Of a stretch of 64,000 nucleotides of DNA, positions 1,884 to 22,622 are shown piece by piece; position 1 is the first letter of the stretch, and every line of letters starts with the position of its first letter. Source of the DNA: Paenibacillus riograndensis SBR5 (GTDB lineage: Bacteria; Bacillota; Bacilli; Paenibacillales; Paenibacillaceae); the NCBI RefSeq assembly GCF_000981585.1, contig NZ_LN831776.1, positions 7,197,216-7,261,215 on the forward strand, read 5' to 3'. The translations under genes were made by a program, and so were the position numbers. The notes below the pieces were generated by a model. It worked only from the letters and a program-made list of their open reading frames with translations. It searched no databases and was not told where the DNA came from.

Positions 1884-3284
1884 TCAGTAAGCATTTTTGA
1901 ATCCGTTGCGGATGGTTTTGAAAATAATCCGGATATCGAACAGCAGCGACCAGTTCTCGATATAGAAAATATCATGCTTGATCCGCTCTTCAATAGAGGT
2001 GTCACCACGGAGCCCGTTGCTCTGTGCCCAGCCGGTAATTCCCGGACGTACATGATGCTTGACCATATATTTCGGAATTTCACCGCGGAACTGCTCCACA
2101 AAGTAGGGACGTTCCGGTCGGGGGCCGACCACACTCATCTGGCCAAACAGCACGTTGAAAAATTGCGGCAGCTCATCCAGACTGGTCCTGCGGATAAAGG
2201 TACCGAACTTGGTCCGCCGGGGATCGACCGGAGTACTCCAGCCCGTATCTTCCACCCCTTCCTGCTGCATCTTCATAGAGCGGAACTTATACATCATGAA
2301 ATTGCGCCGGTTCAGCCCCACCCGCTCCTGCTTGAATATGACCGGACCCGGGGAAGTCAGACGCACACCCAGCGCCACAAGCAGCATCACAGGCGACAAA
2401 ATGATAATGGCGAACAGTGAGAAAAGAATATCAAAAGCACGTTTGGCCAGCTTATTGCCGGTCATATCCAGCGGAATGTCACGGACATTGATCATCGGCA
2501 TGCCGGCAAAATTATCAAAGTAAGGCCGGGCCGGCAAATAATCGAAGAAATCAGGAATAATCAGCGTCCGCACCCCGGCCTTCTCACAGGCGGCGATAAT
2601 CGCCGGGTATTTGGAATGGGCATCCAGCGGAAGGGCCAGGATCACCTCGTCCACCGGCAGCATTTCCAGCATCCCCGGCAGTTCATCCACGGTCCCCAGT
2701 ATCGGCTTGTAGCGCTGCTCTTCAATGTCATCCCATGTATGAAAATCATCCAGAAAACCAATGGTTTCATATCCCAGCTCCGGGTACTGCACCAGGTTGT
2801 TGTAAAATCTTTTACCCAACGTACCGGCACCTAGAATCAGGACAAACTGGCGGTTAAGGCCTTTTTCGCGCAGCGATTTCAGCATTTTCTTCAGCACATA
2901 GCGGTACAGCATAATAGAAAGGACGTTAAAACCCATATAGATCGCAAGGTATTGCCGGGATACGTCAATTTCCTTCAGAAAAAACATTAAGCCAAGCAGC
3001 ATAAAAACAGCCATGATATGGACCTGGAAAATCTTAAGGAACTCATCGACGAAACGCTTCTTGCGCTTTGGCAAATACAGCGAAAGTACAATCCCAATCA
3101 GTACGGCAATACCGCCGTAAATAAAACTCCAATACGCATAAGACTCAATGGGCAATGTCTCGGAGTATTCCAGCCAGCCGCTTCTGAACTTAAGCCACCA
3201 GGCGGCCAGAAAGGCCAACTGAATCACTAAAAAATCGGCAACCATATACAGCTGTGTTAAAAACCTCTGATTACGGCGAATCAT
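1884..3284 (-). CDS. Undecaprenyl-phosphate hexose-1-phosphate transferase, WcaJ type
   Basis: Polyprenyl glycosylphosphotransferase of 466 residues expected to start glycan synthesis by moving a sugar-1-phosphate from a nucleotide sugar to undecaprenyl phosphate at the inner membrane face. The N-terminal half has four membrane helices (roughly residues 8-120), then a Rossmann-like CoA-binding-type domain (LILGAGTLGKRFYN near 148-162), another helix near 283-310, and the catalytic bacterial sugar transferase domain with FKQERVGLN, MYKFRSM, RRTSLDELPQFFNVL, MSVVGPRPERP and HHVRPGITGWAQ. The start overlaps the upstream GT2 stop by 4 nt (ATGA) with GAGGTGA ahead, so the two are co-translated. 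The transferred sugar (glucose or galactose) cannot be told from sequence. Confidence 0.93.
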   Translation of the reverse strand: MIRRNQRFLTQLYMVADFLVIQLAFLAAWWLKFRSGWLEYSETLPIESYAYWSFIYGGIAVLIGIVLSLYLPKRKKRFVDEFLKIFQVHIMAVFMLLGLMFFLKEIDVSRQYLAIYMGFNVLSIMLYRYVLKKMLKSLREKGLNRQFVLILGAGTLGKRFYNNLVQYPELGYETIGFLDDFHTWDDIEEQRYKPILGTVDELPGMLEMLPVDEVILALPLDAHSKYPAIIAACEKAGVRTLIIPDFFDYLPARPYFDNFAGMPMINVRDIPLDMTGNKLAKRAFDILFSLFAIIILSPVMLLVALGVRLTSPGPVIFKQERVGLNRRNFMMYKFRSMKMQQEGVEDTGWSTPVDPRRTKFGTFIRRTSLDELPQFFNVLFGQMSVVGPRPERPYFVEQFRGEIPKYMVKHHVRPGITGWAQSNGLRGDTSIEERIKHDIFYIENWSLLFDIRIIFKTIRNGFKNAY

Positions 3285-4234: not shown

Positions 4235-4285
4235 TGCAATACTCTCCTGACAAATATAGTAATCTAACGACAATTATTATAACAC

Positions 4286-4326: not shown

Positions 4327-4401
4327 GCAGAGTGATTTGTTAAGAAACTATTTCCTGATTGTTACTGCTGTTTACGTAACTGCCAACCTTCACTACTAAA
4401 G

Positions 4402-5708: not shown

Positions 5709-5745
5709 AAAAAAACTCCCAACCCGCCAGTCGCGGTTCAGGAGT
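5709..5745 (-). terminator. Terminator after rfbD
   Basis: On the minus strand CTCCTGAACCGC pairs imperfectly with GCGGGTTGGGAG and is followed by seven T residues. It sits 22 nt beyond the rfbD stop codon. Confidence 0.8.
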
Positions 5746-5766
5746 CTCCGAAATTAGTGATATAAA

Positions 5767-6636
5767 TTATTTTAGCTCAAACAAAAAATCTCTCAATCCT
5801 TCACGCCATGGCCGTATATCCTGAAATCCGTTCGTCCGGATGGCCAAGTGCTCCATTACCGAATACTGAGGGCGTGGTGCTGGACGTGGAAACTGCTCGG
5901 TTGAACATGGCTCCAGCTTGGCAGTAAACTTCAGCCCCAAGATGTCCTCTGCTTCAGCGAAGATCGCCTGTGTGAACTCATACCAGGTACAGAACTCCGT
6001 ATTCGAAGCATGGTAAATGCCGTATTTCTCGGTCTGAATAAGCTCAAGCAGAAAGTTAGCCAAATCAACGGTGTACGTCGGTGAGCCCTTTTGGTCGTCC
6101 ACCACCTGCAGCAGCGGCTTCTCCTGCCCCAGCTTCAGCATGGTTTTGACAAAATTGTTGCCATATTTGCCGTATACCCAGGAAGTGCGAACGATAAAAA
6201 ACTTGGAGGATAAGGACTGTACCAAGACTTCTCCAGCCCGCTTCGACTTGCCGTAGATGCTCTGTGGATCGGTATTATCATATTCATGGTATGGCTGAGT
6301 GCCCATGCCGTCAAAAACATAATCTGTACTGATGTACACCAGCTTTGCCCCCGCCTTCTCAGCAGCAAGCGCCACATTCCGGCTGCCGGTGGCATTGATC
6401 AGATACGCCGCATCTATGTCTGTCTCAGCAACATCTACCGCAGTATGAGCAGCACAGTGAATGACAGCATCCGGTGCGAATCCACCAATGATCTCCACAC
6501 ATTGATCGAGATCGGTAATATCCATCTCCTGACGGTCGCAGCCCAGAACCTCATGACCCTGCGCTTGAAGCAAAAGCACCAAATCCTGACCCAACTGCCC
6601 GGCTGAGCCTGTAACAAGCACCTTCATCTTTGGCAT
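5767..6636 (-). CDS. rfbD: dTDP-4-dehydrorhamnose reductase
   Basis: Last step of dTDP-L-rhamnose synthesis: NADPH-dependent reduction of dTDP-4-dehydro-L-rhamnose. A 289-residue SDR of normal length with the Rossmann motif VTGSAGQLGQDL (residues 7-18), VIHCAAHTAVD, VYISTDYVFDG, the catalytic YGKSKRAGE pair (Tyr and Lys), RTSWVYG and DDQKGSPTYTVDLA. Its ATG overlaps the rfbB stop by one base (TAATG) behind a GGGGGA site, so both are made together; a second in-frame ATG three codons on is possible. Base composition is backbone-like, unlike the AT-rich genes beyond rfbB. Confidence 0.96.
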   Translation of the reverse strand: MPKMKVLVTGSAGQLGQDLVLLLQAQGHEVLGCDRQEMDITDLDQCVEIIGGFAPDAVIHCAAHTAVDVAETDIDAAYLINATGSRNVALAAEKAGAKLVYISTDYVFDGMGTQPYHEYDNTDPQSIYGKSKRAGEVLVQSLSSKFFIVRTSWVYGKYGNNFVKTMLKLGQEKPLLQVVDDQKGSPTYTVDLANFLLELIQTEKYGIYHASNTEFCTWYEFTQAIFAEAEDILGLKFTAKLEPCSTEQFPRPAPRPQYSVMEHLAIRTNGFQDIRPWREGLRDFLFELK

Positions 6637-7658
6637 TACAGCGAATCCCCCAGACGGCTGCCGTACTGGAGCTCAGCATATTTCTGGTACTCACCAGATT
6701 GTATGCGGGTCCACCATTCCTGGTTATTCAGATACCACTGGATTGTTTCCTTAATCCCCGTTTCAAAAGTATGCTTAGGCTTCCAGCCCAGCTCTCTCGT
6801 GATTTTGGTTGGATCAATGCCATAGCGGCGGTCATGCCCGGGACGGTCCTGAACATAGGTGATCAGCGAGTCCGGTTTGCCCAGTTCCTGCAGCACCGTC
6901 TTTACAATATGAACATTTGTGCGCTCGTTGTTCCCGCCAATGTTGTACACTTCGCCATTCACACCTTCATGAATAACCAGATCAATCGCACTGCAGTGAT
7001 CCTCAACATACAGCCAGTCACGGATATTCATTCCATCACCATACACCGGCAGTGCCTGATCCGCCAAAGCCCGCGAAATCATCAGCGGAATCAGCTTCTC
7101 AGGGAACTGGTAGGGACCGTAGTTATTGGAGCAGCGGGTGATATTCACCGGCAGACCAAATGTCTCATGATAAGCACGCACCAGCAAATCCCCTCCCGCC
7201 TTGCTGGCGGAATACGGACTGTTCGGAGTAAGCGGCGTTTCTTCCGTAAACAGGCCAGTCGCCCCAAGCGTTCCATACACCTCATCTGTGGAGACCTGAA
7301 CAAACTTGGTCACGTTATATTTTTTGGCCGCATCCAAAAGCACTTGCGTCCCCAGCACATTCGTCTTCACAAACACATCGGGTTCCAAAATACTCCGGTC
7401 CACATGCGACTCCGCCGCAAAGTTGACCACAACATCAACGCCCTGGCTGAACAGCACATCCATCGCCTGTACATCCGTGATATCAGCCTTGGCAAACGTA
7501 TAATTCGGATGATTCTCAATCGACTTCAAATTTTCCAGATTGCCTGCATAAGTAAGTGCATCTACATTGATGATTTTGTACTCCGGATGTTGCTGCAGCA
7601 TGTAAATTACAAAATTGCTGCCGATAAAGCCGGCCCCGCCGGTAACTAGCAGTTTCAT
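6636..7658 (-). CDS. rfbB: dTDP-glucose 4,6-dehydratase
   Basis: Second step of dTDP-L-rhamnose synthesis: NAD+-dependent conversion of dTDP-glucose to dTDP-4-dehydro-6-deoxyglucose. Motifs: LLVTGGAGFIGSNF near the N-terminus, NFAAESHVDRSI, VSTDEVYG, PYSASKAGGD with the catalytic Tyr and Lys, RCSNNYGPYQFPEKLIPL, and YGDGMNIRDWLYVEDH. The frame opens at a GTG at 7670, but the ATG at 7658 has AAGGTGGG at good distance and gives 340 residues, the family norm. Followed directly by rfbD. The rfbA and rfbC partners are about 20 kb away on the other strand. Confidence 0.96.
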   Translation of the reverse strand: MKLLVTGGAGFIGSNFVIYMLQQHPEYKIINVDALTYAGNLENLKSIENHPNYTFAKADITDVQAMDVLFSQGVDVVVNFAAESHVDRSILEPDVFVKTNVLGTQVLLDAAKKYNVTKFVQVSTDEVYGTLGATGLFTEETPLTPNSPYSASKAGGDLLVRAYHETFGLPVNITRCSNNYGPYQFPEKLIPLMISRALADQALPVYGDGMNIRDWLYVEDHCSAIDLVIHEGVNGEVYNIGGNNERTNVHIVKTVLQELGKPDSLITYVQDRPGHDRRYGIDPTKITRELGWKPKHTFETGIKETIQWYLNNQEWWTRIQSGEYQKYAELQYGSRLGDSL

Positions 7659-7799
7659 GTGTTTACCCACCTTTTATTTTAATAACATTAATAGTTTCAA
7701 GTTCAGTATCCTTTAATAAAGTTCACTTCATTTCATTCATAAAGGATTATTCCATAATATGCTACAGTTATAGTGTATGTAATGGTATTAGACCACTTG

Positions 7800-7984: not shown

Positions 7985-7997
7985 ATATCCATAGAAC

Positions 7998-9360: not shown

Positions 9361-9790
9361 GTGATCAAGGCGTGTATGACGAACTTTATCCAACAAAAGA
9401 CGCGGCAGTATATGGCGTTGAAGATACCTGACCGAACCGCACACTCTGTGGAGATTACGTTTGAGGGCGCAACTAGTCAATACCCGAACTGTACGTTCCA
9501 AATGCTACAACCGACCGAGTTAAAGAATTTGCTTGTTACGCAAAATTGGAAGCTATTCATGATGTAAAAGTCCATTTTCCGAACTATTAATCTTCCCTGC
9601 AACGAAGCTCCAACGAAAACGCAAATGGCCTACCTCGATAATCCTCCCCCCAAAAGAACATGACTTCGCTGCCATTACTTTCCGAAGCCATTCAGCTAAT
9701 TAATAACATCCCTCGCAAATGTCTTGGATAAAAGTTTGCTGACGAAACTTGCATAATAGAACTGCCGCACTTAATTTACCAAATTGTCAT
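9361..9790 (+). pseudogene. Decayed IS30-family transposase (C-terminal half)
   Basis: Plus-strand reading across frames gives successive IS30 blocks: ALKIPDRTAHSVEITFEG (9409 on), then TTDRVKEFACYAKLEAIH (for TxDRGKEFAxYxxLE) with DVKVHFPNY (for VYFaxPY), then QRSSNENANGLPR (for QRGxNENTNGLLR, carrying the last acidic residue), then LLSEAIQLINNIPRKCLG (for xxINxRPRKCLGyxTP). Several stops and frameshifts separate the blocks, so it is inactive. No N-terminal helix-turn-helix or inverted repeats were found. A 68-codon open frame at 9361-9567 is one intact piece of this relic, not a gene of its own. Confidence 0.8.
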
Positions 9791-9836
9791 AACATCAGAC
9801 ATCCACCATAGCAAGGGAAACTAACTTAATCCCATT

Positions 9837-10235
9837 TTATTTAAATGCATACTTCTTATTTAAGAAATAATTCACTACCGGAACAATTACAATAGAAATA
9901 CAATGTCCTATCAAATAACTAGTTACAAGCACATTTATAAAGAAATAAATAATTAACATATTAAGAATTTGTCCAAAAACAGAAACAACAAAATACTTCT
10001 TAAAGATGCTAACCCTTGCTGTTTTATTAAAAGTCCATTTCACATTCAAAAAAAACGATACAATCAATGAACATAAGAAACCAATAACAGAAGATAGTAG
10101 AGGATTTAAAAATAATCTCTCTGTCATTATCATTAATACTACAGTATGGATAATTGTTCCTATGACTCCTATAAAGGCATATCGAATAAACATTGTATTT
10201 GTAAAATCCCAAACAAGTTTCCTAACATTATTCAT
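9837..10235 (-). CDS. GtrA-family membrane protein
   Basis: A 132-residue protein with four predicted membrane helices (about residues 15-37, 43-64, 77-99, 103-125) and the GtrA signature: FIRYAFIGVIGTIIHTVV near the start, a central SFFLNVKWTFN and the closing NYFLNKKYAFK. GtrA proteins are thought to help move polyprenyl-phosphate-linked sugars across the membrane. A GTG nine bases upstream is an alternative start; the ATG at 10235 has GAGAGTG ahead. It overlaps DUF2304 by 8 nt and is last in a GT39 / GT2 / DUF2304 / GtrA set, which supports a lipid-linked sugar role. Confidence 0.88.
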   Translation of the reverse strand: MNNVRKLVWDFTNTMFIRYAFIGVIGTIIHTVVLMIMTERLFLNPLLSSVIGFLCSLIVSFFLNVKWTFNKTARVSIFKKYFVVSVFGQILNMLIIYFFINVLVTSYLIGHCISIVIVPVVNYFLNKKYAFK

Positions 10236-10578
10236 TTTTTTCACTCTCTACTTGTTTTTTTAAAATAGCAATTTCTTGTGTTAGCTGTTTAAGATTATCT
10301 GAAGCATCTGATAATGCTTTTGTTAATGTATATATTATAATGAGTACAAACACGATTGCTACAGTAAATAATGCATTTACTGGATCTTTTATATAAAAAA
10401 CTTTTGAGATTATATCTAGTAAACCTGGAAAGATAGACAATACCAAGCATGATACTATTGTAAAGATCCATACTAAAGCATACTTTAAATTCAGCTTGTA
10501 ACTTCTAATATTCCTCAAAAAAATCACTAAAACCCCTATACTTATTACTATTAATAATATTTGAAGTTGCGGTGCCAT
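10228..10578 (-). CDS. DUF2304 family membrane protein
   Basis: A 116-residue protein with three membrane segments (about residues 5-22, 33-54 and 66-88) and a hydrophilic, coiled-coil-like tail (DNLKQLTQEIAILKKQVESE). The LKYALVWIFTIVSCLVLSIF stretch is characteristic of DUF2304, whose members nearly always lie beside a polyprenyl-phosphate GT2 and often GtrA, as here. Biochemical role is unknown; a scaffold or partner for the lipid-linked-sugar synthase is the usual guess. A TTG one codon earlier is possible. It begins 14 nt after the GT2 stop. Confidence 0.82.
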   Translation of the reverse strand: MAPQLQILLIVISIGVLVIFLRNIRSYKLNLKYALVWIFTIVSCLVLSIFPGLLDIISKVFYIKDPVNALFTVAIVFVLIIIYTLTKALSDASDNLKQLTQEIAILKKQVESEKNE

Positions 10579-10592
10579 CAAGAGCTATCCCC

Positions 10593-11315
10593 CTATACTG
10601 CTTTGTTTTCACGTAGTCGGTCTATTAGAATTGCTAGAGTTACTTTCAACATATAATATATTGATCTCTTAATATTAATAGATGAAATTCCTTCTTTACG
10701 TGCCCGCATTTGTACAGGCACTTCTTCAATCCGATGACCTAAACGCAACAGACACATTATTGATTCAGGTTCTGGATAATCTTTAGGGTAATAATTTGAA
10801 AATTGTTTTATTACTTTAGTATTACAGGCACGAAAACCAGAAGTTGGATCACTAATCTTACTACCACTCAAAAGCTTCAAAAGATTCGAAAAGAAGCGTA
10901 TTCCAATTCTTCTGAATTGTGTGGACTGAAAACCTTCGTTAGCTATATACCTTGAACCAATAACTAAATCTGCTTGATCTTGAACCAGTGGTACTAATAC
11001 GGAACTCAAATATGAAGGATCATGTTGACCGTCTCCATCAACTTGTACAGCAATATCATAGTTATATTTATAAGCATACTTATAACCGGTTTGAACAGCG
11101 CCGCCAATCCCCAAGTTACATGGTAAATCTATAACTATTACCGAAGACAAATTACACACATTTGAAGTTTCATCCGTCGAGCAGTCATTAATAACTAAAA
11201 CATCTAATAAAATTTCTAGCTGCATATTAAGTTTATACGACTCTATTTCACCAAGTAAATTCTTTATATTCTTCGCTTCATTATATGCTGGAATGATCAA
11301 TAAAACTTTCTTCAT
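10593..11315 (-). CDS. Family 2 glycosyltransferase, polyprenyl-phosphate sugar synthase type
   Basis: A 240-residue DPM1/GtrB-like GT2 expected to load a hexose onto a polyprenyl phosphate at the cytoplasmic face. Motifs: VLLIIPAYNEAKNIKNLL (4-21), LVINDCSTDET, DLPCNLGIGGAVQTGY, the AVQVDGDGQHDP metal site, ADLVIGSRYI and KISDPTSGFRACN. It lacks the two C-terminal membrane helices of GtrB, a lack possibly made up by the downstream DUF2304 protein. AGGAGG precedes the ATG; the start overlaps the GT39-like stop by 4 nt (ATGA). Confidence 0.9.
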   Translation of the reverse strand: MKKVLLIIPAYNEAKNIKNLLGEIESYKLNMQLEILLDVLVINDCSTDETSNVCNLSSVIVIDLPCNLGIGGAVQTGYKYAYKYNYDIAVQVDGDGQHDPSYLSSVLVPLVQDQADLVIGSRYIANEGFQSTQFRRIGIRFFSNLLKLLSGSKISDPTSGFRACNTKVIKQFSNYYPKDYPEPESIMCLLRLGHRIEEVPVQMRARKEGISSINIKRSIYYMLKVTLAILIDRLRENKAV

Positions 11316-12598
11316 ATAATACCTCCTGACAGTTTTCTTATAAAACTGTATAAGTACGAATAAACTTTATATATAAATATTGAAAATCCAATAAATACAA
11401 ATGGCATCAAAGTTATGTTGTATCTATTAAATGCAAAGAACATACTATAGACATAAGTAAAATACAAAATGCTTGCAAAAAGGTAAAAAGACTCCAGTTT
11501 ATTCTCTTTATTTCTTATCATAGAATAAATTATTCCTATAGAACTACACAGCAAAATAATCAAGTGACTAGTATGAACAAGATTTGATTTTATATCAAAT
11601 ATCGGTATCCAATAAAAAGCATAATTCCACATAATTTTTGGTTTTAGCACTATATGTGAATACAAAAAATCCATTGGATTTTTATCATACCACTCGACTA
11701 ATCTTTGTTTTGCAACCTTTTCTTGAAGTTCAAATCGTTCATACCAACTCGTTATCTTATTATGTTGTTCTATGTCGTTAATCGTATCATCTAAACTTAT
11801 AGTATCAGGATATCCCACACCTTGAAAACTCCCAAGTAATAGAGGATTACCCACCCCAGAACTTAATGGTATAAACTTGTCAAACTCTACGTAATTCCTA
11901 ATCCACCAAGGAGCTAGAAATACAATTATAATAATCGCAGCAATTCCACCATGTTTAAGCAATAATTTCACTGGATATTTCTTTAAAAGGAAATATATAG
12001 CAAAAACTAATGGGTATAACGCTACTGCCGGTCTAAGGTACACAGAAATCAAATAAAATACAGTTAATAAAATTAGATACTTACTTTTTTTCTTTTCTGC
12101 TAAAACAAGAGAATAATACACCATCAACAATAGAGATGTGGTATAAGGACTTTCAGTGAGTAGTAAGTTATCAGTAACAAGTTGTGGTATATAGATAGCC
12201 AGGAAAAATGCGGATAATAATGAGACGAACTCATTTCTGGTAAGACATCTAGCGATTAATGCAACCGTAAAGACCGAAAGTACGCCACATAAAATCATAA
12301 ATATTTTAGCAGCTGTCATTCCTATACTACCTTTTCCGAATATTAGGATAATGCTAGCTAATAATACCGGCATACCAGGCATTATATGTGTTGTCAACTC
12401 ATTGGGATCATGGTAGGTCAACTTTCCTGATGAAATTAAATTAATCGCACTTTTCCAATAACCCATATCATCACTGTTCAAACTTAACCCATAACCATAA
12501 TTCAACAAAACCAATATTCGTGCAACTAATGCAACAAATATAATACCCATTAATATTTTTTTATAATTTAATTCCAATTCACACTTTATTACATTCAT
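11312..12598 (-). CDS. GT39/ArnT-like integral membrane glycosyltransferase
   Basis: A 428-residue protein with about ten hydrophobic helices. The first periplasmic-type loop carries LNSDDMGYWKSAINL, where the Asp pair matches the catalytic acidic motif of the GT-C fold PMT/ArnT families, followed by ELTTHIMPGMPVLLASIIL and ESPYTTSLLLMVYYSLV. Such enzymes take a sugar from a polyprenyl-phosphate donor outside the membrane and place it on a glycan or protein. Coupled by 4 nt to the GT2 that would make this donor. AGAGGAG site before the ATG. The acceptor is unknown. Confidence 0.83.
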   Translation of the reverse strand: MNVIKCELELNYKKILMGIIFVALVARILVLLNYGYGLSLNSDDMGYWKSAINLISSGKLTYHDPNELTTHIMPGMPVLLASIILIFGKGSIGMTAAKIFMILCGVLSVFTVALIARCLTRNEFVSLLSAFFLAIYIPQLVTDNLLLTESPYTTSLLLMVYYSLVLAEKKKSKYLILLTVFYLISVYLRPAVALYPLVFAIYFLLKKYPVKLLLKHGGIAAIIIIVFLAPWWIRNYVEFDKFIPLSSGVGNPLLLGSFQGVGYPDTISLDDTINDIEQHNKITSWYERFELQEKVAKQRLVEWYDKNPMDFLYSHIVLKPKIMWNYAFYWIPIFDIKSNLVHTSHLIILLCSSIGIIYSMIRNKENKLESFYLFASILYFTYVYSMFFAFNRYNITLMPFVFIGFSIFIYKVYSYLYSFIRKLSGGII

Positions 12599-12780
12599 AT
12601 TATTCTCCTCTTATATATTGTTTCTATCATGTTATCCATTCTGCTTTTTCGCTCTATACCCATAAAACACCATGTGCAGAAAATACAGATTAACTCGTTC
12701 TACAAACTCACAATATGTTATTTCATTTAACATTGAATAATATCGATAACAATATTGAACTATTCTCTGATTATTTATAC

Positions 12781-13884
12781 TCATTCATCTATTGCTAAAT
12801 TAATTACTTTTTTTATTTCATTGAATCTTTTGATCCAAGTATTATCTCTCAAATACTCATATGATTCTTTAACTTCATGTGACCCACTAATCATTTTATT
12901 AATTTCACCTAACACCTCATGCTTGTCCCTATATAAACTTACATACTCATAAAATTTCTCCGCTTCCGGGTATCTTATACAGAAAATCGGCTTATCAAAC
13001 ATAATATATTCATATATTTTGACAGGATCAACGGCTTCTATCAATTTATTTACAACAAAAGGCATTATAAATGCATCAACATCTCTCACATGAGTAACAA
13101 GGGAATCATGACTAACTGCACCGATATAAGTAATTCGTGGATGGAGAACCTTTTTAACTGTACTAGGACCTATAAGTTTAAATTCAACTCTTTTATTTTC
13201 GGATAAAATATACATAAGTAAATCAAAATCGAACCAATCACTTATTGTACCAACATATCCAATTACATACTTACTGGTTTCACTATATCTGTTAACTATT
13301 TGTAGGTACTCATCTTTTTTATCTAGCCATTTTTGACTAACTGCATTATTTATTACATATATTTCTTCATCTCTAATATATTCTACATAACGGCTTTGAA
13401 GCCGTTCTTTTAACGTACTTGATGAAGTAATAATCATCTTTGATTTGCAAACCAATTGTTCCTCCAATTGCTTATGTTTACTGAGGTCTTTCTTATGTTC
13501 AGTAAACTCTAAATAATCATCCATACAATCATAAATAATATTGCTATTATTATTGATATGTTTAAAATCAATGAAATTAAATATAATAGGTGAAGTCACC
13601 CATATAAGGTCATATACGGAAAAGTCTATGGATCGGATTTTCTTATTCAATAAACATTCAACTTTTTTTATAATCTTTAATTTCCCGGAATAAGGCAGCT
13701 TGTATAATTTGCGTATATTTAATTTTTTACAAACCTCTTGTTTTTTATATCTGCTACTATTGGCAACTTGTTTTATATATATTAAGTCTACATCGTAGAC
13801 CGCAGATAATTCCTCTGCAATAAAATGAGGTCTCTGTTTTGCCCAATTCCAATCTATATGCATTAAGTATGCAATTTTAACCAT
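12781..13884 (-). CDS. GT-B fold glycosyltransferase (GT4-like)
   Basis: A 367-residue enzyme of the GT-B type. Visible: MHIDWNWAKQRPHFIAEEL near the N-terminus, IIYDCMDDYLEF, YVIGYVGTISDWFDFDLL (start of the nucleotide-sugar domain), FKLIGP, ITYIGAV, and DAFIMPF...LIEAVDPVKIYEYI with the E-x7-E-like donor site. It is clearly related to the C-terminal domain of the fused protein at 14904-17237 (shared YDxMDDxxEF, GYxGxxxxWFD, EAVDPxKIYEYI). The start overlaps the upstream GT4 stop by 8 nt. A 180-nt gap follows before the GT39-like gene. Donor sugar unknown, rhamnose possible. Confidence 0.85.
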   Translation of the reverse strand: MVKIAYLMHIDWNWAKQRPHFIAEELSAVYDVDLIYIKQVANSSRYKKQEVCKKLNIRKLYKLPYSGKLKIIKKVECLLNKKIRSIDFSVYDLIWVTSPIIFNFIDFKHINNNSNIIYDCMDDYLEFTEHKKDLSKHKQLEEQLVCKSKMIITSSSTLKERLQSRYVEYIRDEEIYVINNAVSQKWLDKKDEYLQIVNRYSETSKYVIGYVGTISDWFDFDLLMYILSENKRVEFKLIGPSTVKKVLHPRITYIGAVSHDSLVTHVRDVDAFIMPFVVNKLIEAVDPVKIYEYIMFDKPIFCIRYPEAEKFYEYVSLYRDKHEVLGEINKMISGSHEVKESYEYLRDNTWIKRFNEIKKVINLAIDE

Positions 13885-14926
13885 ATAGCTTACCGCTCAT
13901 AAGATTATTCCAATCCTCTATGAATTGATTATATTGCAGTTTAGATTGGTGGTTTTTTAGTGTTGTTTGATAATCTTTATAATGCCTATTAACTTCTGCT
14001 AACTTAGATACCGCTTCTTCTATATTTCCGATTGTGTACAAAAATTCATTATCACCTGAAACAAGTTCATTATGAGCCACTATGTCTGATAATATCACTG
14101 GTATATCACTGCATATCGCTTCTGCAGCAGAAAGTCCAAAAGTTTCTTGAGTTGATGAAGATATAAATATCCCTCTATGATTTCTAACCATTTCAAAGAT
14201 TTTATGAACATTTTCAAAAGCAATAGGGGGCATAATAATAGTTCTTCCCCTAACTTGATATTTTTCCAGTAATGAAATTAAATCTAATTCATGTTTAATT
14301 ACGTGGCCAACAAGTACCAGAATCATGTCATCATCAATATTCTGCTTATAATAAGAAAAAATTTCTATAACCTCTTCTACATTCTTAAGTTTGTCCATTC
14401 TTCCCAAATAGAGCATCGGTTTTTTATTCCATATCTGTTCGAAATGCTCACTTTTATTTGTAGGTGCAATCACAGCATTAGAAATTTTGAAGACTCTATC
14501 TGTATAATTGTTAGTAACCTCTTTTATTAAAATATTTCTGAAATGATTGCTTGGAACAATGATACCTGCAATATTTTGAGGTAATCTACGAATATATGCT
14601 CGATTATCTTTATATGCAGTGTGGCATTCTATAAACACTTTTTGATTCGAATTAACCATGTCAAAAATTTCGGGTGTATCAACTGAGAAAATAAAATCGT
14701 ATTTTGCTTCATCAATTGTATCAACCACTTGAATAAAACTACCTAACGCATTTCTCTTAATATAATCTTTAAATTGTGATAATCCACCACTATCATACAT
14801 AAAATAAATATCATATATAACGGGACTATTGTATTCTTTAAACGCATGAGCTCTATTCAGAAATACTCTTTCCACTCCGCCCATTGTTGCCCATTTATAT
14901 ACATTAAGAATTCTTAGCTGTTTCAT
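13877..14926 (-). CDS. Family 4 glycosyltransferase
   Basis: A 349-residue GT-B enzyme: N-terminal ILNVYKWATMGGVERVFLN (acceptor domain with a GGVE motif), VFIECHTAYKDNRAYIRRL, GIIVPSNHFRNIL, then the donor domain with PMLYLGRMDKLKNVEEVIEIF, MILVLVGH, IIMPPIAFENVHKIFE, and GIFISSSTQETFGLSAAEAI, the E-x-F-G-x4-E family 4 motif. CGGAGATAT precedes the ATG. The first 23 nt overlap the end of the methyltransferase fusion gene, so it belongs to the same operon. Specificity cannot be read from sequence. Confidence 0.9.
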   Translation of the reverse strand: MKQLRILNVYKWATMGGVERVFLNRAHAFKEYNSPVIYDIYFMYDSGGLSQFKDYIKRNALGSFIQVVDTIDEAKYDFIFSVDTPEIFDMVNSNQKVFIECHTAYKDNRAYIRRLPQNIAGIIVPSNHFRNILIKEVTNNYTDRVFKISNAVIAPTNKSEHFEQIWNKKPMLYLGRMDKLKNVEEVIEIFSYYKQNIDDDMILVLVGHVIKHELDLISLLEKYQVRGRTIIMPPIAFENVHKIFEMVRNHRGIFISSSTQETFGLSAAEAICSDIPVILSDIVAHNELVSGDNEFLYTIGNIEEAVSKLAEVNRHYKDYQTTLKNHQSKLQYNQFIEDWNNLMSGKLYG

Positions 14927-17237
14927 AATGATATATCTCCGTATTATAGATATTTTTATATTCCATCATCTTTTTAAAACGTTGATCCCAAGATGATTCA
15001 TTCAGAAATGTTTCAACAACTAGATCATTGTCCTCTTTTGGATCCTTATATACTTTATAAATAAAATCAACTATCGGGATTTCATCACTATATAATAATG
15101 TATTTGGAAACAACTCAAGATGTGGAATTCCCGTTACAATTACCTTTAATCCAAAATAGATATATTCATAAATTTTTATTGGATCTACAGCTTCAGATAA
15201 TTTACTTTTTTTGAAAGGTATCATCCCTATATCCCAATTCTGAATATACTTATATAAATTTTTCGGTTCTACTTTTCCAATATATTTAAAATTAGAATAT
15301 TTTTTGAGGCTGCTGATCGTAGCTTCTTTAGCGCCGTATCCAATGATCTCAACAAAAATCTTCTCATCCTTAAGCATTTCTTCCACTAATCCCCAATCGA
15401 ACCATGATTCAGTCAGATGGCCAAAATATCCGAGCGTGATTTTATTAGAAGAATTTTTTTTTCCGGAGATATATTTATTGTTTTCTCCCAATAAGTCTTT
15501 GTAATAGCCATTACCAATGCATATAATATCCCTGCGCAAAAAACTAAATTTTGCCGATAATGGAGGGGATACAGCTACAACACTCTCCACATTGATAATC
15601 ATTTCTTCCTCTAACTGTTTATTATACCATGCAGCTTGTCCTACTTTGTTGAACTCTTCCCAATCATCCATAATGTCATATATGGTACTATACCCAAGTT
15701 CTTTAATACGATATAAGGCGGTATTCCATTGTTCTGAAGGTATGTTCAATATAGCTTTTTTGTTACCTATTTCATTCAATAATTGCAGCTTCTCTATGTT
15801 TTCTATAAACTCAAACAAAGGTATCTGGAAGACGTTTGGATACACTTCTTTAAATGCATCAGGGATTATTTCATTTTTATTCCACTGCCATACAACAAAT
15901 AAAACTGCTTTGTTATCTTTAGATGAATATTTCGCTAAATTTATTGTTCTTTGATTGTATAACTCATCAAACTCAAATGCTGAGGGAATAATAAAGAAAC
16001 CATTTATTTTATTTTCTTGATATTTTTCATTAATATGGCTATACAGTGTATCAATATTTTTATTCTCCTTGTTTTGAGATGTTGGTTTAGTGATTTTATG
16101 TTTAATTTGCCGACACAATGCATAAAAACCATGTCTTTTCCAAATCCGCAACCCTTTATAAGCATGTTTGATGATTGGTATATTATCCCTTATCTTGTAA
16201 TATTTCCTAGATAACTTATATATATTTGAAGATTTAATCTCATTAACCTCAGTATCTAATCTATACTTTTCTGCTATCAACCATTTTTCTTGTTTATCGA
16301 AAAAATCCAGCCTTTCTTCATACGCTAATTTTTGCGAAATAGAAGTGTTTAGTTCATTTTCCAGGCTATTCACTTGTTCTATATATCTAATTCTTTCATC
16401 GTTAAGTTTATCTGTGTTAATTATATTAGCATGAATCAATGCTAACTGTTCTTTGTTTGTTTCTATCAAGTGATTTAAAGTGATTTCAATTCTCTCGTTC
16501 TTCTCTTTTAAAGATGTGTTCTCAAGTTGAATTGCGTCCAATTGTTTCTTTAAATCACTATAATTATAAGTTAATGAATTAATATAATCTTTTAGGGTTA
16601 CATCTTTCTTTCTTTTCTGATTTTCTTGGTTTCTTTCATAAATCACCAAAAGTTGCTTTCCAGCCCAAAAAATATTTTCTTTTATTGAACAATCATATTC
16701 CTGAGCATAAACAATAGTAAAATCGTTATATTCAACATTAAAATCCTTATAATCAAAAGTATGAAAATGCTCTCTGAATCTTTCATATTCCTGAAAGGGA
16801 ATTAATATGACAGTATATTGGGAGGATATTCTAAATAATTCTCTGATAATATCAAATGGATTAATAAAATGCTCTAAAGTATTAGATGAGAATACTACAT
16901 CAAATTTCTTATCGATAGATTTAATATCTGCTTGGATAAATGTTTGTTCTGGATAATATTCTTTTGCTTTCCGTATAGCTGATTCAGAAAAATCAATACC
17001 CGTGAATTTGGTGTTAGGAAATAATTCAGAAAAAAAATTCGTGCAGTCTCCTTCTGCACAACCAACATCAGCAAAAGTTACCCCTTCTGATAAAACATTC
17101 TTAAACCAATCTGGGAGCATCTCAATAGCAATGCCCCCAAAGTATAACGTTTGTTCTCTCCCTGAATAGGAATCCCAATTCGTTTCAAATCTAGAATCCC
17201 AGTATTCTTTACTATTAACTAAAAACTTATCTTCCAC
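14904..17237 (-). CDS. Methyltransferase-coiled coil-glycosyltransferase fusion
   Basis: A 777-residue three-part protein. Residues 1-205 form a class I SAM methyltransferase (FADVGCAEGD at 55-64, FTGIDFSESAI, FIQADI, VVFSSNTLEHF). Residues about 225-340 are a long charged coiled coil with no prolines. Residues about 345-390 carry a basic linker, and about 410-770 form a GT-B transferase resembling the product of 12781-13884 (IYDIMDDWEEF, LGYFGHLTESWFDW, EAVDPIKIYEYI). The GTG start has AGAGGTG 10 nt ahead; the first 11 nt overlap the Wzt stop. The layout recalls WsaE-type methylrhamnosyl enzymes and, functionally, WbdD chain terminators whose coiled coil sets length. A role in adding and methylating a terminal sugar is inferred, not shown. 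Confidence 0.85.
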   Translation of the reverse strand: MEDKFLVNSKEYWDSRFETNWDSYSGREQTLYFGGIAIEMLPDWFKNVLSEGVTFADVGCAEGDCTNFFSELFPNTKFTGIDFSESAIRKAKEYYPEQTFIQADIKSIDKKFDVVFSSNTLEHFINPFDIIRELFRISSQYTVILIPFQEYERFREHFHTFDYKDFNVEYNDFTIVYAQEYDCSIKENIFWAGKQLLVIYERNQENQKRKKDVTLKDYINSLTYNYSDLKKQLDAIQLENTSLKEKNERIEITLNHLIETNKEQLALIHANIINTDKLNDERIRYIEQVNSLENELNTSISQKLAYEERLDFFDKQEKWLIAEKYRLDTEVNEIKSSNIYKLSRKYYKIRDNIPIIKHAYKGLRIWKRHGFYALCRQIKHKITKPTSQNKENKNIDTLYSHINEKYQENKINGFFIIPSAFEFDELYNQRTINLAKYSSKDNKAVLFVVWQWNKNEIIPDAFKEVYPNVFQIPLFEFIENIEKLQLLNEIGNKKAILNIPSEQWNTALYRIKELGYSTIYDIMDDWEEFNKVGQAAWYNKQLEEEMIINVESVVAVSPPLSAKFSFLRRDIICIGNGYYKDLLGENNKYISGKKNSSNKITLGYFGHLTESWFDWGLVEEMLKDEKIFVEIIGYGAKEATISSLKKYSNFKYIGKVEPKNLYKYIQNWDIGMIPFKKSKLSEAVDPIKIYEYIYFGLKVIVTGIPHLELFPNTLLYSDEIPIVDFIYKVYKDPKEDNDLVVETFLNESSWDQRFKKMMEYKNIYNTEIYHYETAKNS

Positions 17238-18522
17238 TGGTTAGATTCACCTCTTTATTCAACAATATACGATAGGGCGTATGAATGACTCCAAAGAGTT
17301 GCTTTGTCGTTATTGACTTAAAATATGCTGCCCCTTCTATAAAATCGTAATATTCTGGTTGTATTCCTTTACGATTTTCGAGTGCGGCTACGAGAATATA
17401 GTCTCCTTCTGTTAGGTAATTAACAAATTCAAAGGTCAATTCAATCTCGTTAGATGTAGATGAAAATATAGTTTTTTTGTCGTCATGAGTTGTAAACACA
17501 ATTAAATCCAGTCCCATTGTATTCTTAATTGAGATCGCTGCACTAAAATGCAATAAGTCAATATCTTCCGGAAAAGAAAACTTAAGGATGATTCTAACAA
17601 TCTCACCATGTTGAAAAACTGTTGTAGTTCTTCCCTTTTCGTTGATTAAAGCCACACTCTTTATTGAATTCTTATGAGTACCCCACCTATTTATTGCATC
17701 AATTTTAGTGTCCCCAATCATTTCAACAGGTTCTCCATCACGCAAGCCATTATCTTCAAGCGTTTTTATATCAGGCTGTCCCGATTCTTCTGAATTCATA
17801 AATTCCATATATTCCGCTGTCACGCCTAGTGTATCACCAAAAGCAACTAGATTACCTTGATGCAACCACATAGCTTTATCGCAAAATTTACGAATACTAG
17901 ATACGTCATGCCCTACGAACAGTATTGTAGTGCCTTTGGCTTTCAACTCTTCAAACTTTCTGAAGCATTTTGCTTGAAATTTCATATCCCCAACCGCTAG
18001 CGCCTCATCAACAATTAAAATATCAGGTTCAACATTAATTGCTACAGCAAATGCTAGTCTAGCGAACATTCCACTCGAGTATGTTTTTACAGGCTGATAT
18101 ATAAAATCACCAATGTCGGCAAATGTTAAAATATCATTTAGTTTCTCGTTCATTTGCTCTTTACTTTTCCCTTGGATTGTACCATTCAAGTATATATTTT
18201 CTAATCCGTTATACTCTTGATTAAATCCTGCACCGAGTTCTAATATTGCAGAAACAGACCCTTGAATTTGAACACTACCTGTTGTCGGGGTGGAGACGTG
18301 TGATAGTATTTTCAATAAAGTAGATTTCCCAGATCCGTTTCTACCAATTATACCTATTGTTTCTCCCTTGTTTATTACCAATGAAATATTATTTAGTGCA
18401 TGGAAATCAGATGAGAACTTTTTCTTAGTCAAGCTTAGTGTTTCTTTTAATCTATCTCCAGGATTTTTATAAACTCGATATATCTTAGAAAGCTGATTAA
18501 TTTTAATTATTGGGTTTGCCAT
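17227..18522 (-). CDS. Polysaccharide ABC exporter ATPase with C-terminal domain (Wzt type)
   Basis: A 431-residue ATPase that powers export of a lipid-linked polysaccharide. The nucleotide-binding domain (residues 1-250) has Walker A GRNGSGKST (60-68), signature YSSGMFARLAFA, Walker B DILIVDEAL and the VGHD switch. Residues about 265-431 form a beta-rich extension (RWGTHKNSIKSVALINEKG, EIELTFEFVNYLTEGDYILV) of the Wzt_C kind, which in E. coli O9a/O8 binds the capped end of the glycan. TagH-like wall teichoic acid ATPases lack this carbohydrate-binding type, so Wzt is preferred. The ATG at 18522 with AAAGGAG 5 nt ahead is chosen over an upstream ATG. It starts 16 nt after the permease stop. 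Confidence 0.92.
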   Translation of the reverse strand: MANPIIKINQLSKIYRVYKNPGDRLKETLSLTKKKFSSDFHALNNISLVINKGETIGIIGRNGSGKSTLLKILSHVSTPTTGSVQIQGSVSAILELGAGFNQEYNGLENIYLNGTIQGKSKEQMNEKLNDILTFADIGDFIYQPVKTYSSGMFARLAFAVAINVEPDILIVDEALAVGDMKFQAKCFRKFEELKAKGTTILFVGHDVSSIRKFCDKAMWLHQGNLVAFGDTLGVTAEYMEFMNSEESGQPDIKTLEDNGLRDGEPVEMIGDTKIDAINRWGTHKNSIKSVALINEKGRTTTVFQHGEIVRIILKFSFPEDIDLLHFSAAISIKNTMGLDLIVFTTHDDKKTIFSSTSNEIELTFEFVNYLTEGDYILVAALENRKGIQPEYYDFIEGAAYFKSITTKQLFGVIHTPYRILLNKEVNLTSGR

Positions 18523-18538
18523 AGTTACTCCTTTCAAA

Positions 18539-19336
18539 TCAAAGCACATCGGAAAAATGTGGGCTTAATTTTTTAAATAAAGTAGCACCGACTACTAAAA
18601 GAAATCCAGTAATTAACCAGAAATAAATAGTCAAATTATAATGGTGCCAAAACCAAATTTTATTGATCAATGAGTCGCGATACCCTTCAACAATGTAATA
18701 CATTGGATTCACTTTAAATATCCAATGAAATTTAGTTGGAACCTGATTAAATGACCAAAATATTGGCGTGAGCCAAAAACCGAACTGTAGAATAATATTC
18801 ACAACTTGTCCGACATCTTTTAAAAAAACATTAAGCGCAGATACAACCCAAGATAGTCCTGTAAGAAAAAGACATAAAATAAATGAATAGTAGAATATCT
18901 GCAACTGATATAAATCTATCGGTCTTCCATAGCAGTAATAAATTATTAAACTCAACGCGATAAATACAATATGAACTATTAATGCAGACACAATTTTAAC
19001 AACAGGCAATAAATACGTATTAAATGAAACTTTTTTGACTAAAAAACTATTTTGTTCTATGGAAGTAGTAGCTGATGCCAAACTTTCAGAAAAGAAAAAC
19101 CACGGTACTATACCCGCTAAAAGCCATAAAATAAACGGCGCATTTTCAACAGGATTATTTCTAAATCCAACTTGAAACACGAACCAATAAATCAGAATCA
19201 ATAAAATCGGTTGAAAAAAACCCCAAAAACTTCCTAACGTTGATCCAAGGTATCTAGCCTTGAAATCTTTTTTTGCAAGTTCTTTAATTATATTTTTTTG
19301 TTTAAAAATACTAAGGGTATACTCAAATATCGTCAT
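18539..19336 (-). CDS. Polysaccharide ABC exporter permease (Wzm type)
   Basis: A 265-residue ABC-2 permease with six membrane helices and the family start KELAKKDFKARYLGSTLGSF, an amphipathic gate helix before the first membrane segment; later AGIVPWFFFSESLASATTSI, KKVSFNTYLLPVV, FLKDVGQVVNIILQFGFWLTPIFW and NPMYYIVEGYRDSLI. It pairs with the following Wzt-type ATPase to move a finished lipid-linked glycan outward. AAGGAG precedes the ATG. It is the first gene of the AT-rich minus-strand operon. A teichoic-acid TagG role is possible by family, but the adjacent Wzt_C domain favours a capped polysaccharide. Confidence 0.92.
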   Translation of the reverse strand: MTIFEYTLSIFKQKNIIKELAKKDFKARYLGSTLGSFWGFFQPILLILIYWFVFQVGFRNNPVENAPFILWLLAGIVPWFFFSESLASATTSIEQNSFLVKKVSFNTYLLPVVKIVSALIVHIVFIALSLIIYYCYGRPIDLYQLQIFYYSFILCLFLTGLSWVVSALNVFLKDVGQVVNIILQFGFWLTPIFWSFNQVPTKFHWIFKVNPMYYIVEGYRDSLINKIWFWHHYNLTIYFWLITGFLLVVGATLFKKLSPHFSDVL

Positions 19337-19871: not shown

Positions 19872-22622
19872 GTGTCGAAACCAGTATACGGTAAAAATGC
19901 TGTGCAGTCGAGAAATGTTGAAAAGATATCCAGCCCGGTGTGGGCGTTGGTTGTTGCTTTTATTGTGTTTTTGGTGTGGACCCCATTTCAGGTTGGATTG
20001 TTTAATGGGCAGCAGATCGACTATGAAAAGCCGATTTATGTGGCATCTCTGCTCAGCGGCCTGCTGCTGCTGGTCTGGATCGGCTTGTACTATAAGAAGT
20101 TCAAGCTGGAGGAGCAGCGTGACTTGCTGGCTGTGGCTTCGCTGCTGCTGCCGATAACGTATGCTCTGTCGCTATTTGGCGCTGCTTCGCATTATATGGC
20201 GATGAACATTCTCTTTATTCAGAGTATGTATATTGCAGTATTCATTATAGCGTTATATTTGCTGAAGCAAAAGCAACTAAATGTTGTCATTCAAAATGCC
20301 GTACTGGCCATTGCCTATTTTATCGTGGGTTTTGGCTTGCTGAACTGGCTGGGGGCCTGGAAATTCGCCGGCGGACTGGTTGGCTGGTTCTCAGACACGG
20401 TGCAAGGCGGTAAATATTTGGATGCGGTTATGACCGACTCAAACGGTCTGCGGCTGACCTCGATCTTCCAATATGCGAATACATACGCAGCTTTCCTGAT
20501 GGCTTTTCTGTTCGTAGCTGTCTTTGCATTGGTTCGCTCCAAGAAATGGTATGGGACGCTGACTCACGGATTTATGCTCGTGCCGATCATTGTTTCTTTG
20601 CTGCTGACCTTGTCCCGCGGCGGATTAGTTATGCTGCCTGTTGTCTTCATTCTGCTCCTGCTGTCTCTGAAGCCAGTGAAGCAGATTCTCTGGATTATCC
20701 ATCTGGGAATTGCCGGGATTGCCTCGCTGGCGATTGCAAGCCCGGTGACCAATCTTGGAACTGAACTGAGCACGGCCTTTACCTCTTCTGCTGCTCTTAA
20801 AGGCTGGGCTTATCTGCTTGGCGCCTCCGCCGTTGTTGCCGCACTTGGCTGGGTAATCCAGCGCTTTGTGTCACCGTGGCTGCAAACTAAACTAGGGGGC
20901 TGGGAATCGCGCAAGCTTGCTGGTCTGTGGCTGCCGCTCCTCTCAGTTGTACTTGTTGCCGTAGTCGCATTTTTACTGATCGGAACAAGCGCACGCACTA
21001 TTCTCCCTGCTAACATGGAGACACGGCTGGAGAACATCAACTTCAAGCAGCACAGTGTACTGGAACGTATTACTTTTTATAAAGATGCTATGAAAGTTGT
21101 AAAAGATTATCCCATTATTGGCGCCGGGGGTGGAGGCTGGGCTTCGCTCTATGAGCACTACCAGGACTACCCGTACACAAGCCGCCAGGCGCATAATTTC
21201 TTCCTGCAATATTTGATAGAAGTCGGAATTGTCGGATTTGTTGTCTTCATGGGCTTTATCGGCTACATTTTCTATAAATACATTCGTGGATACCTTAAAC
21301 GGGACAAAGATGAATTTGATAATGGATTCATTTTCTACATCATTGCTCTATCGATTCTTATTCACAGCATACTAGACTTCAATCTCAGTTATGCCTTTAT
21401 GGGAATTCTGGTGTTTATCGGCCTTGCCGGAATGGGCGCCGCCATGGACAGCAAACCGCTGCGCCGGAACTGGAATAAGCCTGGTATGCGTTATGGTTAC
21501 CTTGCAGTCCTGGCTATCGGTATAATCTTTATGTTCTTCCTGTCGGTTAGTGCGACCGGCTCAAGCAATTCGGTAATGAAAGCCAAGCGGTTGATCGGTG
21601 TCAGCCAGTCCTATGAAGAGCTCAAGGCACCTTTGATAGCAACCCTAAAAGACCGCCCTTATCATCCGGAAGCAGCAGCTTATCTGGCCTCCATGGATCA
21701 GCAGGTTTTTAATCAAACTAAAGATGAGCAGTACTTGAACGAAGCGTTCAGCGTGCTGAATCGTGCGCTCAAGGACGAGCCAAATAATAAGATTTTGCTC
21801 ACTCTACTCGCTTCCACTTATGACTTGAAAGGTCAAAACGATCTCGCATTCGCCGTCTACCGGGATAACGCAGATAAGTTCAACTGGGATATTGAATGGT
21901 ACGAAGCACTGATCAGCCGCTCCCAGGCGTTAGCACGTGCGGCAAATGCCGAAAAAGATGAAGCCAAAAAGCAGGAATACCTGACCACGGGTTTGGATGC
22001 CTATAAACATGTAACTGCTGGTGTAGAACATCTGAAAACTCTGCCTCCAGAGCAGCTGCAGGGCCGGGCGTTCTCGGTAACACCAACGATTGCCCTGAAT
22101 GCCGGTAAAATGCAGCAGATGGCAGGACAGAATGACGAAGCAGCAGCAACCTTAAAGCTTGGGCTTGGTGATGCTTATGCAGATGTCGTAAATAACGGAA
22201 CGCTCTGGGATACGACCTGGTACAGCTCGCTTATTGCCCGCTCCTATGATCTGGCTCAGCAAGCTTTCACCCAGCAGGATGCCACCGGTAAAACAACATA
22301 CCTGAATGTCGGTCTTAGTGCCTATAATCAGGTGCAGGCTGACTTACAAGTCCAGTCGCTTGCCGTACCTCCGGCAATTGCGCTGAACGCTGGCAGAATC
22401 CAGGTGATGGCGGGTCAGATTCAAGCAGCCTCAGAGACCTTAAAGCTTGGGCTGAGCGAAAATTATAACGATGCCACTAACCGGGAGATGGCCCGCTGGT
22501 ACCTGGCAGCCTTGAAAAAGGCTGGCCTTGATCAAGATCAACCGGTCTACGACAAACTGATTGCCGCAGATCCCGCGGAAGCTGCACAGATAGATGCTAT
22601 TGTGAATACTCAGTACCAATAA
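19872..22622 (+). CDS. O-antigen ligase/polymerase-like membrane protein with TPR domain
   Basis: A 916-residue protein: about 12 membrane helices in the first 560 residues, then a soluble TPR region. The large outer loop before the last helices carries ARTILPANMETRLENINF, YPIIGAGGGGWASLYEHY and SRQAHNFFLQYLIEVGIVGF, the Wzy_C/WaaL signature with the conserved His. The C-terminal part has helical repeats including two related copies (GLDAYKHV...APT-type IALNAGKMQQMAGQ and GLSAYNQV...IALNAGRIQVMAGQ). GTG start with AAGGAG 9 nt ahead. By context it may polymerise the glycan or transfer it to a surface protein, as WsaB-type oligosaccharyltransferases do; which one is open. Confidence 0.87.
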   Translation: MSKPVYGKNAVQSRNVEKISSPVWALVVAFIVFLVWTPFQVGLFNGQQIDYEKPIYVASLLSGLLLLVWIGLYYKKFKLEEQRDLLAVASLLLPITYALSLFGAASHYMAMNILFIQSMYIAVFIIALYLLKQKQLNVVIQNAVLAIAYFIVGFGLLNWLGAWKFAGGLVGWFSDTVQGGKYLDAVMTDSNGLRLTSIFQYANTYAAFLMAFLFVAVFALVRSKKWYGTLTHGFMLVPIIVSLLLTLSRGGLVMLPVVFILLLLSLKPVKQILWIIHLGIAGIASLAIASPVTNLGTELSTAFTSSAALKGWAYLLGASAVVAALGWVIQRFVSPWLQTKLGGWESRKLAGLWLPLLSVVLVAVVAFLLIGTSARTILPANMETRLENINFKQHSVLERITFYKDAMKVVKDYPIIGAGGGGWASLYEHYQDYPYTSRQAHNFFLQYLIEVGIVGFVVFMGFIGYIFYKYIRGYLKRDKDEFDNGFIFYIIALSILIHSILDFNLSYAFMGILVFIGLAGMGAAMDSKPLRRNWNKPGMRYGYLAVLAIGIIFMFFLSVSATGSSNSVMKAKRLIGVSQSYEELKAPLIATLKDRPYHPEAAAYLASMDQQVFNQTKDEQYLNEAFSVLNRALKDEPNNKILLTLLASTYDLKGQNDLAFAVYRDNADKFNWDIEWYEALISRSQALARAANAEKDEAKKQEYLTTGLDAYKHVTAGVEHLKTLPPEQLQGRAFSVTPTIALNAGKMQQMAGQNDEAAATLKLGLGDAYADVVNNGTLWDTTWYSSLIARSYDLAQQAFTQQDATGKTTYLNVGLSAYNQVQADLQVQSLAVPPAIALNAGRIQVMAGQIQAASETLKLGLSENYNDATNREMARWYLAALKKAGLDQDQPVYDKLIAADPAEAAQIDAIVNTQYQ

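Follow-up and report, generated by a model that had tools for sequence, protein, structure and literature searches.

A methyltransferase, coiled-coil and glycosyltransferase fusion overlapping a Wzt gene in Paenibacillus riograndensis: a probable cap, ruler and export gate, with a coil that varies in length among relatives

The window, i.e. the whole stretch of 64,000 nucleotides of Paenibacillus riograndensis SBR5 analysed here, contains a glycan gene cluster in which one gene encodes a methyltransferase (MT), a coiled coil and a glycosyltransferase (GT) in a single chain, next to the genes of an ABC exporter. The features of the locus are:

1884..3284, minus strand, undecaprenyl-phosphate hexose-1-phosphate transferase (initiation; TIGR03023, 490 bits, above cutoff)
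5767..7670, minus strand, rmlD and rmlB, dTDP-rhamnose synthesis (TIGR01214 at 339 bits; TIGR01181 at 507 bits; each above its cutoff)
12781..13884, minus strand, TuaH-like glycosyltransferase, paralogous to the GT domain of the fusion (TuaH, 2.5e-21, below the model cutoff)
13877..14926, minus strand, group 1 glycosyltransferase, overlapping the fusion gene downstream (Pfam Glycos_transf_1, 1.9e-17)
14904..17237, minus strand, the whole MT-coil-GT fusion, 777 aa
14940..16010, minus strand, GT-B glycosyltransferase, residues 410-766, proposed chain-building module
16089..16226, minus strand, basic amphipathic helices, residues 338-383, proposed membrane contact
16233..16568, minus strand, coiled-coil helix, residues 224-335, proposed ruler (AlphaFold2 model)
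16623..17237, minus strand, SAM-dependent MT domain, residues 1-205 (boundary cut by us), proposed cap writer (Pfam Methyltransf_31, 3.5e-16)
17227..18522, minus strand, Wzt, 431 aa, ABC ATPase with Wzt_C, overlapping the fusion gene by 11 nt
17284..17691, minus strand, Wzt_C domain, Wzt residues 278-413, proposed cap reader (Pfam PF14524)
18539..19336, minus strand, Wzm, ABC permease (Pfam ABC2_membrane, 1.5e-25)
19872..22622, plus strand, O-antigen-ligase-type membrane protein with a TPR-like tail (Wzy_C, 1.1e-15; TPR_19, 0.0006, below cutoff), a candidate transferase of the finished glycan

The gene at 22841-23728 is GalU; rmlA and rmlC are not seen among the window ORFs scanned, which hold rmlB and rmlD only. 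The TuaH-like protein shares 29% identity with fusion residues 517-763. Genes in 7998-19336 have a G+C content of 0.30-0.35, against 0.49-0.59 in sampled surrounding genes, and rmlB/rmlD and the initiation transferase (1884-7670) lie at about 0.50. In S-layer glycan clusters the genes wzm, wzt and wsaE overlap, GTs lie downstream of the transporter and the G+C content is low (PMC2943079). The window cluster partially resembles them: the slg-type gene order and the initiation transferase fit, and low G+C is confined to 7998-19336. The glycan is perhaps of the S-layer type, and perhaps contains rhamnose. The tandem of GtrA, DUF2304, polyprenyl-phosphate-type GT2 and PMT_2 protein genes at 9837-12598 (minus strand) looks like a multi-component system adding a side sugar outside the membrane.

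The fusion begins, as WbdD does, with a SAM-dependent MT, identified by Pfam, by its conserved site and by an AlphaFold2 model in which the domain mostly exceeds a pLDDT of 90. Its fold matches the plantazolicin methyltransferase 5dm2 (2.7e-8), and WbdD is absent from the 60 PDB matches listed (of 144) for the family profile. Residues G59, C60, A61, D82, N119, E122, H123 and H157 are invariant in 83 aligned sequences, own included; the first four belong to the SAM site, whose intactness had been set beforehand as a test and which, judged by this alignment, appears intact. The coil is modelled as a single unbroken 112-residue helix (pLDDT about 75-88), and a COILS-type score covers residues 218-318 in a single heptad frame save at two window starts of the score. 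Neither Pro nor Gly occurs in the helix, and at 1.5 A per residue its predicted span is ~16-17 nm. Right after the coil, the 18-residue stretch starting at 354 (354-371) has the highest hydrophobic moment of the entire fusion (0.58), and residues 336-410 carry a net charge of +13; an extended coil followed by an amphipathic region is likewise the order of WbdD, and this region is the proposed membrane contact. The chain ends in a single GT-B domain according to model and fold, where WsaE has two GT domains. Only 12-18 residues separate the MT (to 205) from the coil (from 218 or 224), with no room for the kinase that O9a-type WbdD carries at this place, so that a methyl-type cap is the simplest reading. 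A first-pass annotation of this DNA had proposed most of this architecture, and Pfam, model and fold matches bear it out: a SAM MT, a proline-free coil and a GT-B domain in one chain, the 11-nt overlap with wzt, and the lack of a kinase. Among the best 80 matches of 159, named relatives include Paenibacillus phytohabitans with a 93% identical fusion. A motif of the SW[RK] type, situated close to where the coil ends, is not general: it occurs in 69 of 243 coil-bearing proteins (protein matches and locus ORFs pooled, some proteins counted twice) and is absent from the window protein.

The window Wzt consists of an ABC ATPase (ABC_tran, 9.5e-24) followed by Wzt_C (9.6e-22), both above the Pfam cutoff, and a profile alignment matches it over its full length to the Wzt of A. 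aeolicus. The C-terminal extension suspected earlier to be a Wzt_C domain is thus present, and from its sequence it is predicted to bind a capped chain end. The corresponding A. aeolicus domain binds 3-O-methyl-mannose (PMC9445017). Compared with that pocket, under a numbering offset of one deduced from residue identities, the small Ala348 is retained in all 16 aligned sequences (own included), and the Trp362 lid position is aromatic in 16/16 (Phe in 7, Tyr in 9). The polar sugar contacts are not retained: Asn313 is replaced by Thr in 14/16, His350 by Glu in 16/16 and Leu300 by Ser in 14/16; the cap sugar or the methyl position must therefore differ from that of A. aeolicus. Pairwise distances of MT, Wzt_C, the nucleotide-binding domain (NBD) and Wzm all correlate (0.76-0.88) over 38 loci, i.e. 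those of 42 with a Wzm match. The partial correlation of MT with Wzt_C (0.258) is no greater than with NBD (0.252) or Wzm (0.238), and each value is reached by 0 of 2000 permutations. Specific co-evolution of MT and Wzt_C beyond that with NBD and Wzm is accordingly not seen in these loci, and the four parts travel as a module.

The best explanation of the gene pair, to which we assign a probability of about 0.7, is a terminator, ruler and exporter unit for an ABC-transporter-dependent surface glycan, in which the growing chain would receive a methyl cap at a fixed distance from the membrane and, once capped, be exported. The fusion, presumably as an oligomer, would sit on the membrane via its basic amphipathic helices, where the GT-B domain and neighbouring GTs would extend the lipid-linked chain, and the coil would hold the MT ~16-17 nm off. 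Once long enough to reach the MT, a chain would receive an O-methyl group at the non-reducing end and grow no further. Wzt_C would then bind the methylated end and license export through Wzm/Wzt. The unit is real and recurrent, and of a known kind in a new combination: a methyl-only writer, a coil and a single GT-B in a Gram-positive.

Several known systems share parts of this plan. WsaE of Geobacillus stearothermophilus NRS 2004/3a (S-layer glycan) is likewise Gram-positive, with an N-terminal MT fused to a chain-building GT, and its gene overlaps those of wzm and wzt (PMC2943079), much as the fusion gene overlaps wzt here; it differs in its two GT domains, and it makes the alpha-1,2 and alpha-1,3 linkages of the repeat (PMC2943079). 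Of 549 matches, the 120 listed include none under the name WsaE; the nearest architecture found is that of Calidifontibacillus (L032), with a coil score at 208-323. WsaE 2-O-methylates the terminal rhamnose. WbdD of E. coli O9a/O8 carries its cap writer at the far end of the coil and its membrane-side end by the polymerase (PMC11231755, PMC5082667). The O9a protein differs by a kinase at 211-459, lacking in the window fusion, and E. coli O8 has a methyltransferase-only homologue (PMC3482155); the GT is recruited by WbdD and fused in the window protein. In ORF6 of Klebsiella O7 a single polypeptide comprises an MT, a coil in the middle and GTs at the C-terminus, and its gene cluster includes wzm and wzt (PMC11231755); ORF6 differs by an additional kinase, a carbohydrate-binding domain and two GT modules. 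The MT of E. coli O101/O162, compared here by its description only, shares a methyl end cap, an MT plus coil and a wzm/wzt exporter, and differs in being Gram-negative with no fused GT described (PMC13168486). This MT-coil protein is needed for the single O-methyl per capped chain, and methyl-capped chains account for every chain in O162, for 85.4% in the O101 reference and for 13.7% in Onovel32 (PMC13168486). A search for the O101 MT via the order of a Serratia genome gives 0/394 and also 0/2, run without a positive control. In Klebsiella O12 WbbB the terminator sugar is Kdo. WbbB unites a terminator, a coil and a pair of polymerase GTs in a single polypeptide (PMC11231755), and its terminator is a GT, not an MT.

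The MT-coil-GT plus Wzt arrangement is not peculiar to this genome. A contig scan with 159 relatives, of which the best 80 matches were kept, gives 78 loci, and in 54 of them the central ORF begins with an MT by the family profile. A Wzt gene bearing Wzt_C lies within 80 nt upstream of the ORF start in 40 of the 54, and elsewhere in the locus on the same strand in five more (45/54); the MT is followed by a scored coil in 51 loci, 38 of which have the adjacent Wzt_C. Among the nine MT loci with no detected Wzt_C on that strand, five have the ATPase only (L010, L035, L073, L078, L079) and four have no Wzt-type ATPase on the ORF strand (L042, L046, L054, and L062, which has one on the other strand). 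Adjacent Wzt_C occurs in Bacillota, Pseudomonadota, Campylobacterota (Sulfurovum), Desulfuromonadales and Candidatus Gracilibacteria; MT loci without it include members of Planctomycetota, Myxococcota, Bacteroidota and another Patescibacteria bin. The MT lies elsewhere in the ORF in four loci, three without coil and Wzt (L048, L049, L058) and one with coil and Wzt_C (L071). The remaining 20 central ORFs lack an MT by the family profile: 12 of these loci have no Wzt-type ATPase (one of them, L076, has an internal MT by Pfam, plus a coil), six have the ATPase without a family Wzt_C score, and two have Wzt_C, i.e. a split copy of the Paenibacillus fusion (L004) and L025. Wzt_C counts are lower bounds, since Pfam finds the domain in L024 where the family profile misses it. 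Six of 100 same-genus genomes match: three with the full-length protein (own and two others), one in three pieces and two with MT-coil-sized ORFs. These two ORFs (L084, 330 aa; L085, 374 aa) match MT and coil only (query 3-288 and 7-298) and are perhaps terminators without a fused GT. In four of the ATPase-only loci (L035, L073, L078, L079) the Wzt next to the MT-coil protein is 243-264 aa long, without a detected reader domain. In Thiomonas (L010, 6887-9982) the search upstream of the fusion finds just an ATPase of 262 aa and an ORF of 130 aa that matches a portion of the ATPase, and the adjoining Wzt reading frame may be interrupted.

What is new here is the variation of coil length among close relatives. 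Length was measured from the invariant Gln 195 before the coil to the invariant Gln 429 after it, i.e. coil plus flanks, in 93 full-length proteins, own included. In pairs at least 90% identical in MT plus GT the stretch differs in 27/34, by a multiple of 7 in 26 of the 27. This share falls to 17/27 at 80-90%, 35/51 at 70-80% and 104/297 at 60-70% identity, and below 60% it is near chance (135/878, 289/2462 and 74/476); these all-pairs counts are of non-independent pairs. In 24 disjoint pairs at 70% identity or more, each protein being used once, the stretch differs in 21, while the remaining protein is equal in length in 19 of the 24; 12 of the 21 changes are whole heptads (chance 1/7; binomial p 6e-6). 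Because several of these pairs share a lineage and are not fully independent, lineages were also counted (single linkage at 80%): ten groups have more than one length, five of which agree modulo 7 throughout (p 0.008), and a sixth does so in 7/8 members. The coil stretch is thus the variable part among close relatives, often by whole heptads.

In the seven groups whose sequences were inspected, coils are made of repeats such as QIASLNQAVAERDG, copies of which are gained or lost. In the DNA itself, a 42-bp unit is present in 5.3 copies with 100% match in an isolate, Thiomonas bhubaneswarensis DSM 18181. Tandem repeats with a period divisible by 21 bp are present in 17/58 MT loci, in 14 inside the script-bounded coil and in three outside it, among them L036, whose repeat lies immediately beyond the scored coil. 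Other coil repeat periods are 33 bp (L037, L042), 12, 15 and 24 bp (L042, L061) and 138 bp (L071). The 33-bp (11-residue) repeat of Microvirga sp. (L042, ORF 9938-13210, codons 261-295; 3.1 copies, 97% match) is a hendecad, not a heptad. The near-identical proteins with differing coils mostly carry metagenome-type source codes, and assembly can collapse tandem repeats; the presence of repeats is firm in the Thiomonas isolate, their precise number less certain. No heptad repeat is seen in the window's own coil, its stretch is constant at 234 residues in its nearest relatives (3/3), the family of the Thiomonas genome holds no close length series (3/299 genomes matched), and 2/398 genomes match in the genus of a Pseudomonas genome.

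A tentative reading, to which we give somewhat less than even odds, is that MT-coil-GT proteins are step-adjustable rulers, in which units of 7 or 14 residues (21- or 42-bp repeats) are gained or lost, and whose chassis takes other writers, once with an SLH reader. Glycan length would then be retuned stepwise with capping enzyme, polymerase and exporter untouched, and coil length may switch rapidly in some lineages. Relatives with near-identical enzymes and different whole-heptad coils form a natural series for testing the ruler. A limited literature search, from which absence from print is not claimed, yielded no account of natural variation in ruler length by heptads.

The coil might instead merely oligomerise or tether the enzyme, with chain length governed by other means (enzyme ratio, exporter kinetics) and chains of any length capped by the MT. 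This is an unlikely alternative that nonetheless keeps real weight: nine of the 21 differing disjoint pairs change by non-heptad steps, and a second set, MT-coil-GT2, is nearly fixed in coil length, with 5/12 disjoint pairs differing, two of the five by a multiple of 7 and no significant heptad excess (p 0.15). Methylation by WsaE in vitro is independent of chain length, and a further factor has been proposed (PMC2943079), a role that would suit a coil separating the MT from the polymerase. Against a mere tether, a ruler function is reported for WbdD (PMC5082667, PMC11231755), and a tether is not expected to vary alone in length between ends that are 90-100% identical, a pattern seen mainly in metagenome assemblies.

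The first-pass annotation had also let the GT add a special terminal sugar, which the MT would then methylate. We consider this improbable. The fusion has one GT-B only, against two GTs in WsaE and Klebsiella O7 ORF6, and sugar-adding terminators exist, the GT4-coil-GT proteins L024 and L025 having a second GT on the cap side whose function we infer; both points would suit a terminal sugar. In the known fusions, however, the C-terminal, membrane-side GTs polymerise and the terminator lies at the far end of the coil (PMC11231755), and the window GT is C-terminal too. GTs fused to or recruited by rulers build the chain in the systems cited (PMC2943079, PMC11231755), which leaves terminal sugar addition unsupported, although the rest of the earlier interpretation (SAM site, coil, Wzt_C, no kinase) agrees with sequence and fold. 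As the window protein has the same order of parts as known rulers, with the GT fused on, its GT more likely serves, by analogy, to build the chain at the membrane end than to add a terminal sugar. Least probable of all is an MT that modifies internal sugars or a precursor, to which a weak match (8.3e-6; 26.1 bits, cutoff 112) with the model of a methylase associated with pseudaminic acid would point, against the Wzt_C adjacency in 40/54 loci, the fusion of the MT to coil and GT, and the one O-methyl per capped chain of the E. coli O101/O162 protein, likened by description (PMC13168486).

The cap, ruler and gate unit favoured above has counterparts with other writers. The cap-side domain before coil and GTs is swapped for a sulfotransferase, pyruvyltransferase or GT4 in P0190, P0113-P0117, L024 and L025. 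With coil and GT kept, the N-terminal domain is a sulfotransferase in P0190, a GT4 in L024 and L025, and a pyruvyltransferase in L029, L019 and L106. In Desulfoferrobacter suflitae (L029) the Wzt (7288-8556) carries SLH domains instead of Wzt_C, scoring 1.1e-13 in sum with no single repeat passing 1e-5, and the fusion (8627-11437) follows 70 nt on. SLH domains bind pyruvylated sugars, and a pyruvate cap with a cytoplasmic SLH cap reader is possible at this locus. The three pyruvyltransferase loci with a visible Wzt have three different types of it, namely SLH (L029), Wzt_C at 3.3e-14 (L106) and a reader-less 257-aa Wzt (L019/L110), so the SLH pairing is a lead and not a rule; a fourth locus (L107) is a 4.1-kb contig without Wzt. 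Pyruvyltransferase writers occur in 1/345 genomes of the phylum of the Desulfoferrobacter genome (the genome itself) and in 3/350 of that of the Chloroflexi genome (own included), and these 345 + 350 genomes of two phyla give one case only of an SLH reader beside a pyruvyltransferase. A second Wzt with SLH domains, from an Anaerolineaceae MAG (L072:1587-3014), adjoins an 817-aa GT protein whose N-terminal part is without a Pfam match, and the 9.2-kb contig bears no pyruvyltransferase. In Paenibacillus alvei, a 1310-aa protein (P0149) has ~340 N-terminal residues without a Pfam match, followed by a coil (343-497) and GT2 modules, and is perhaps another cap writer on a ruler.
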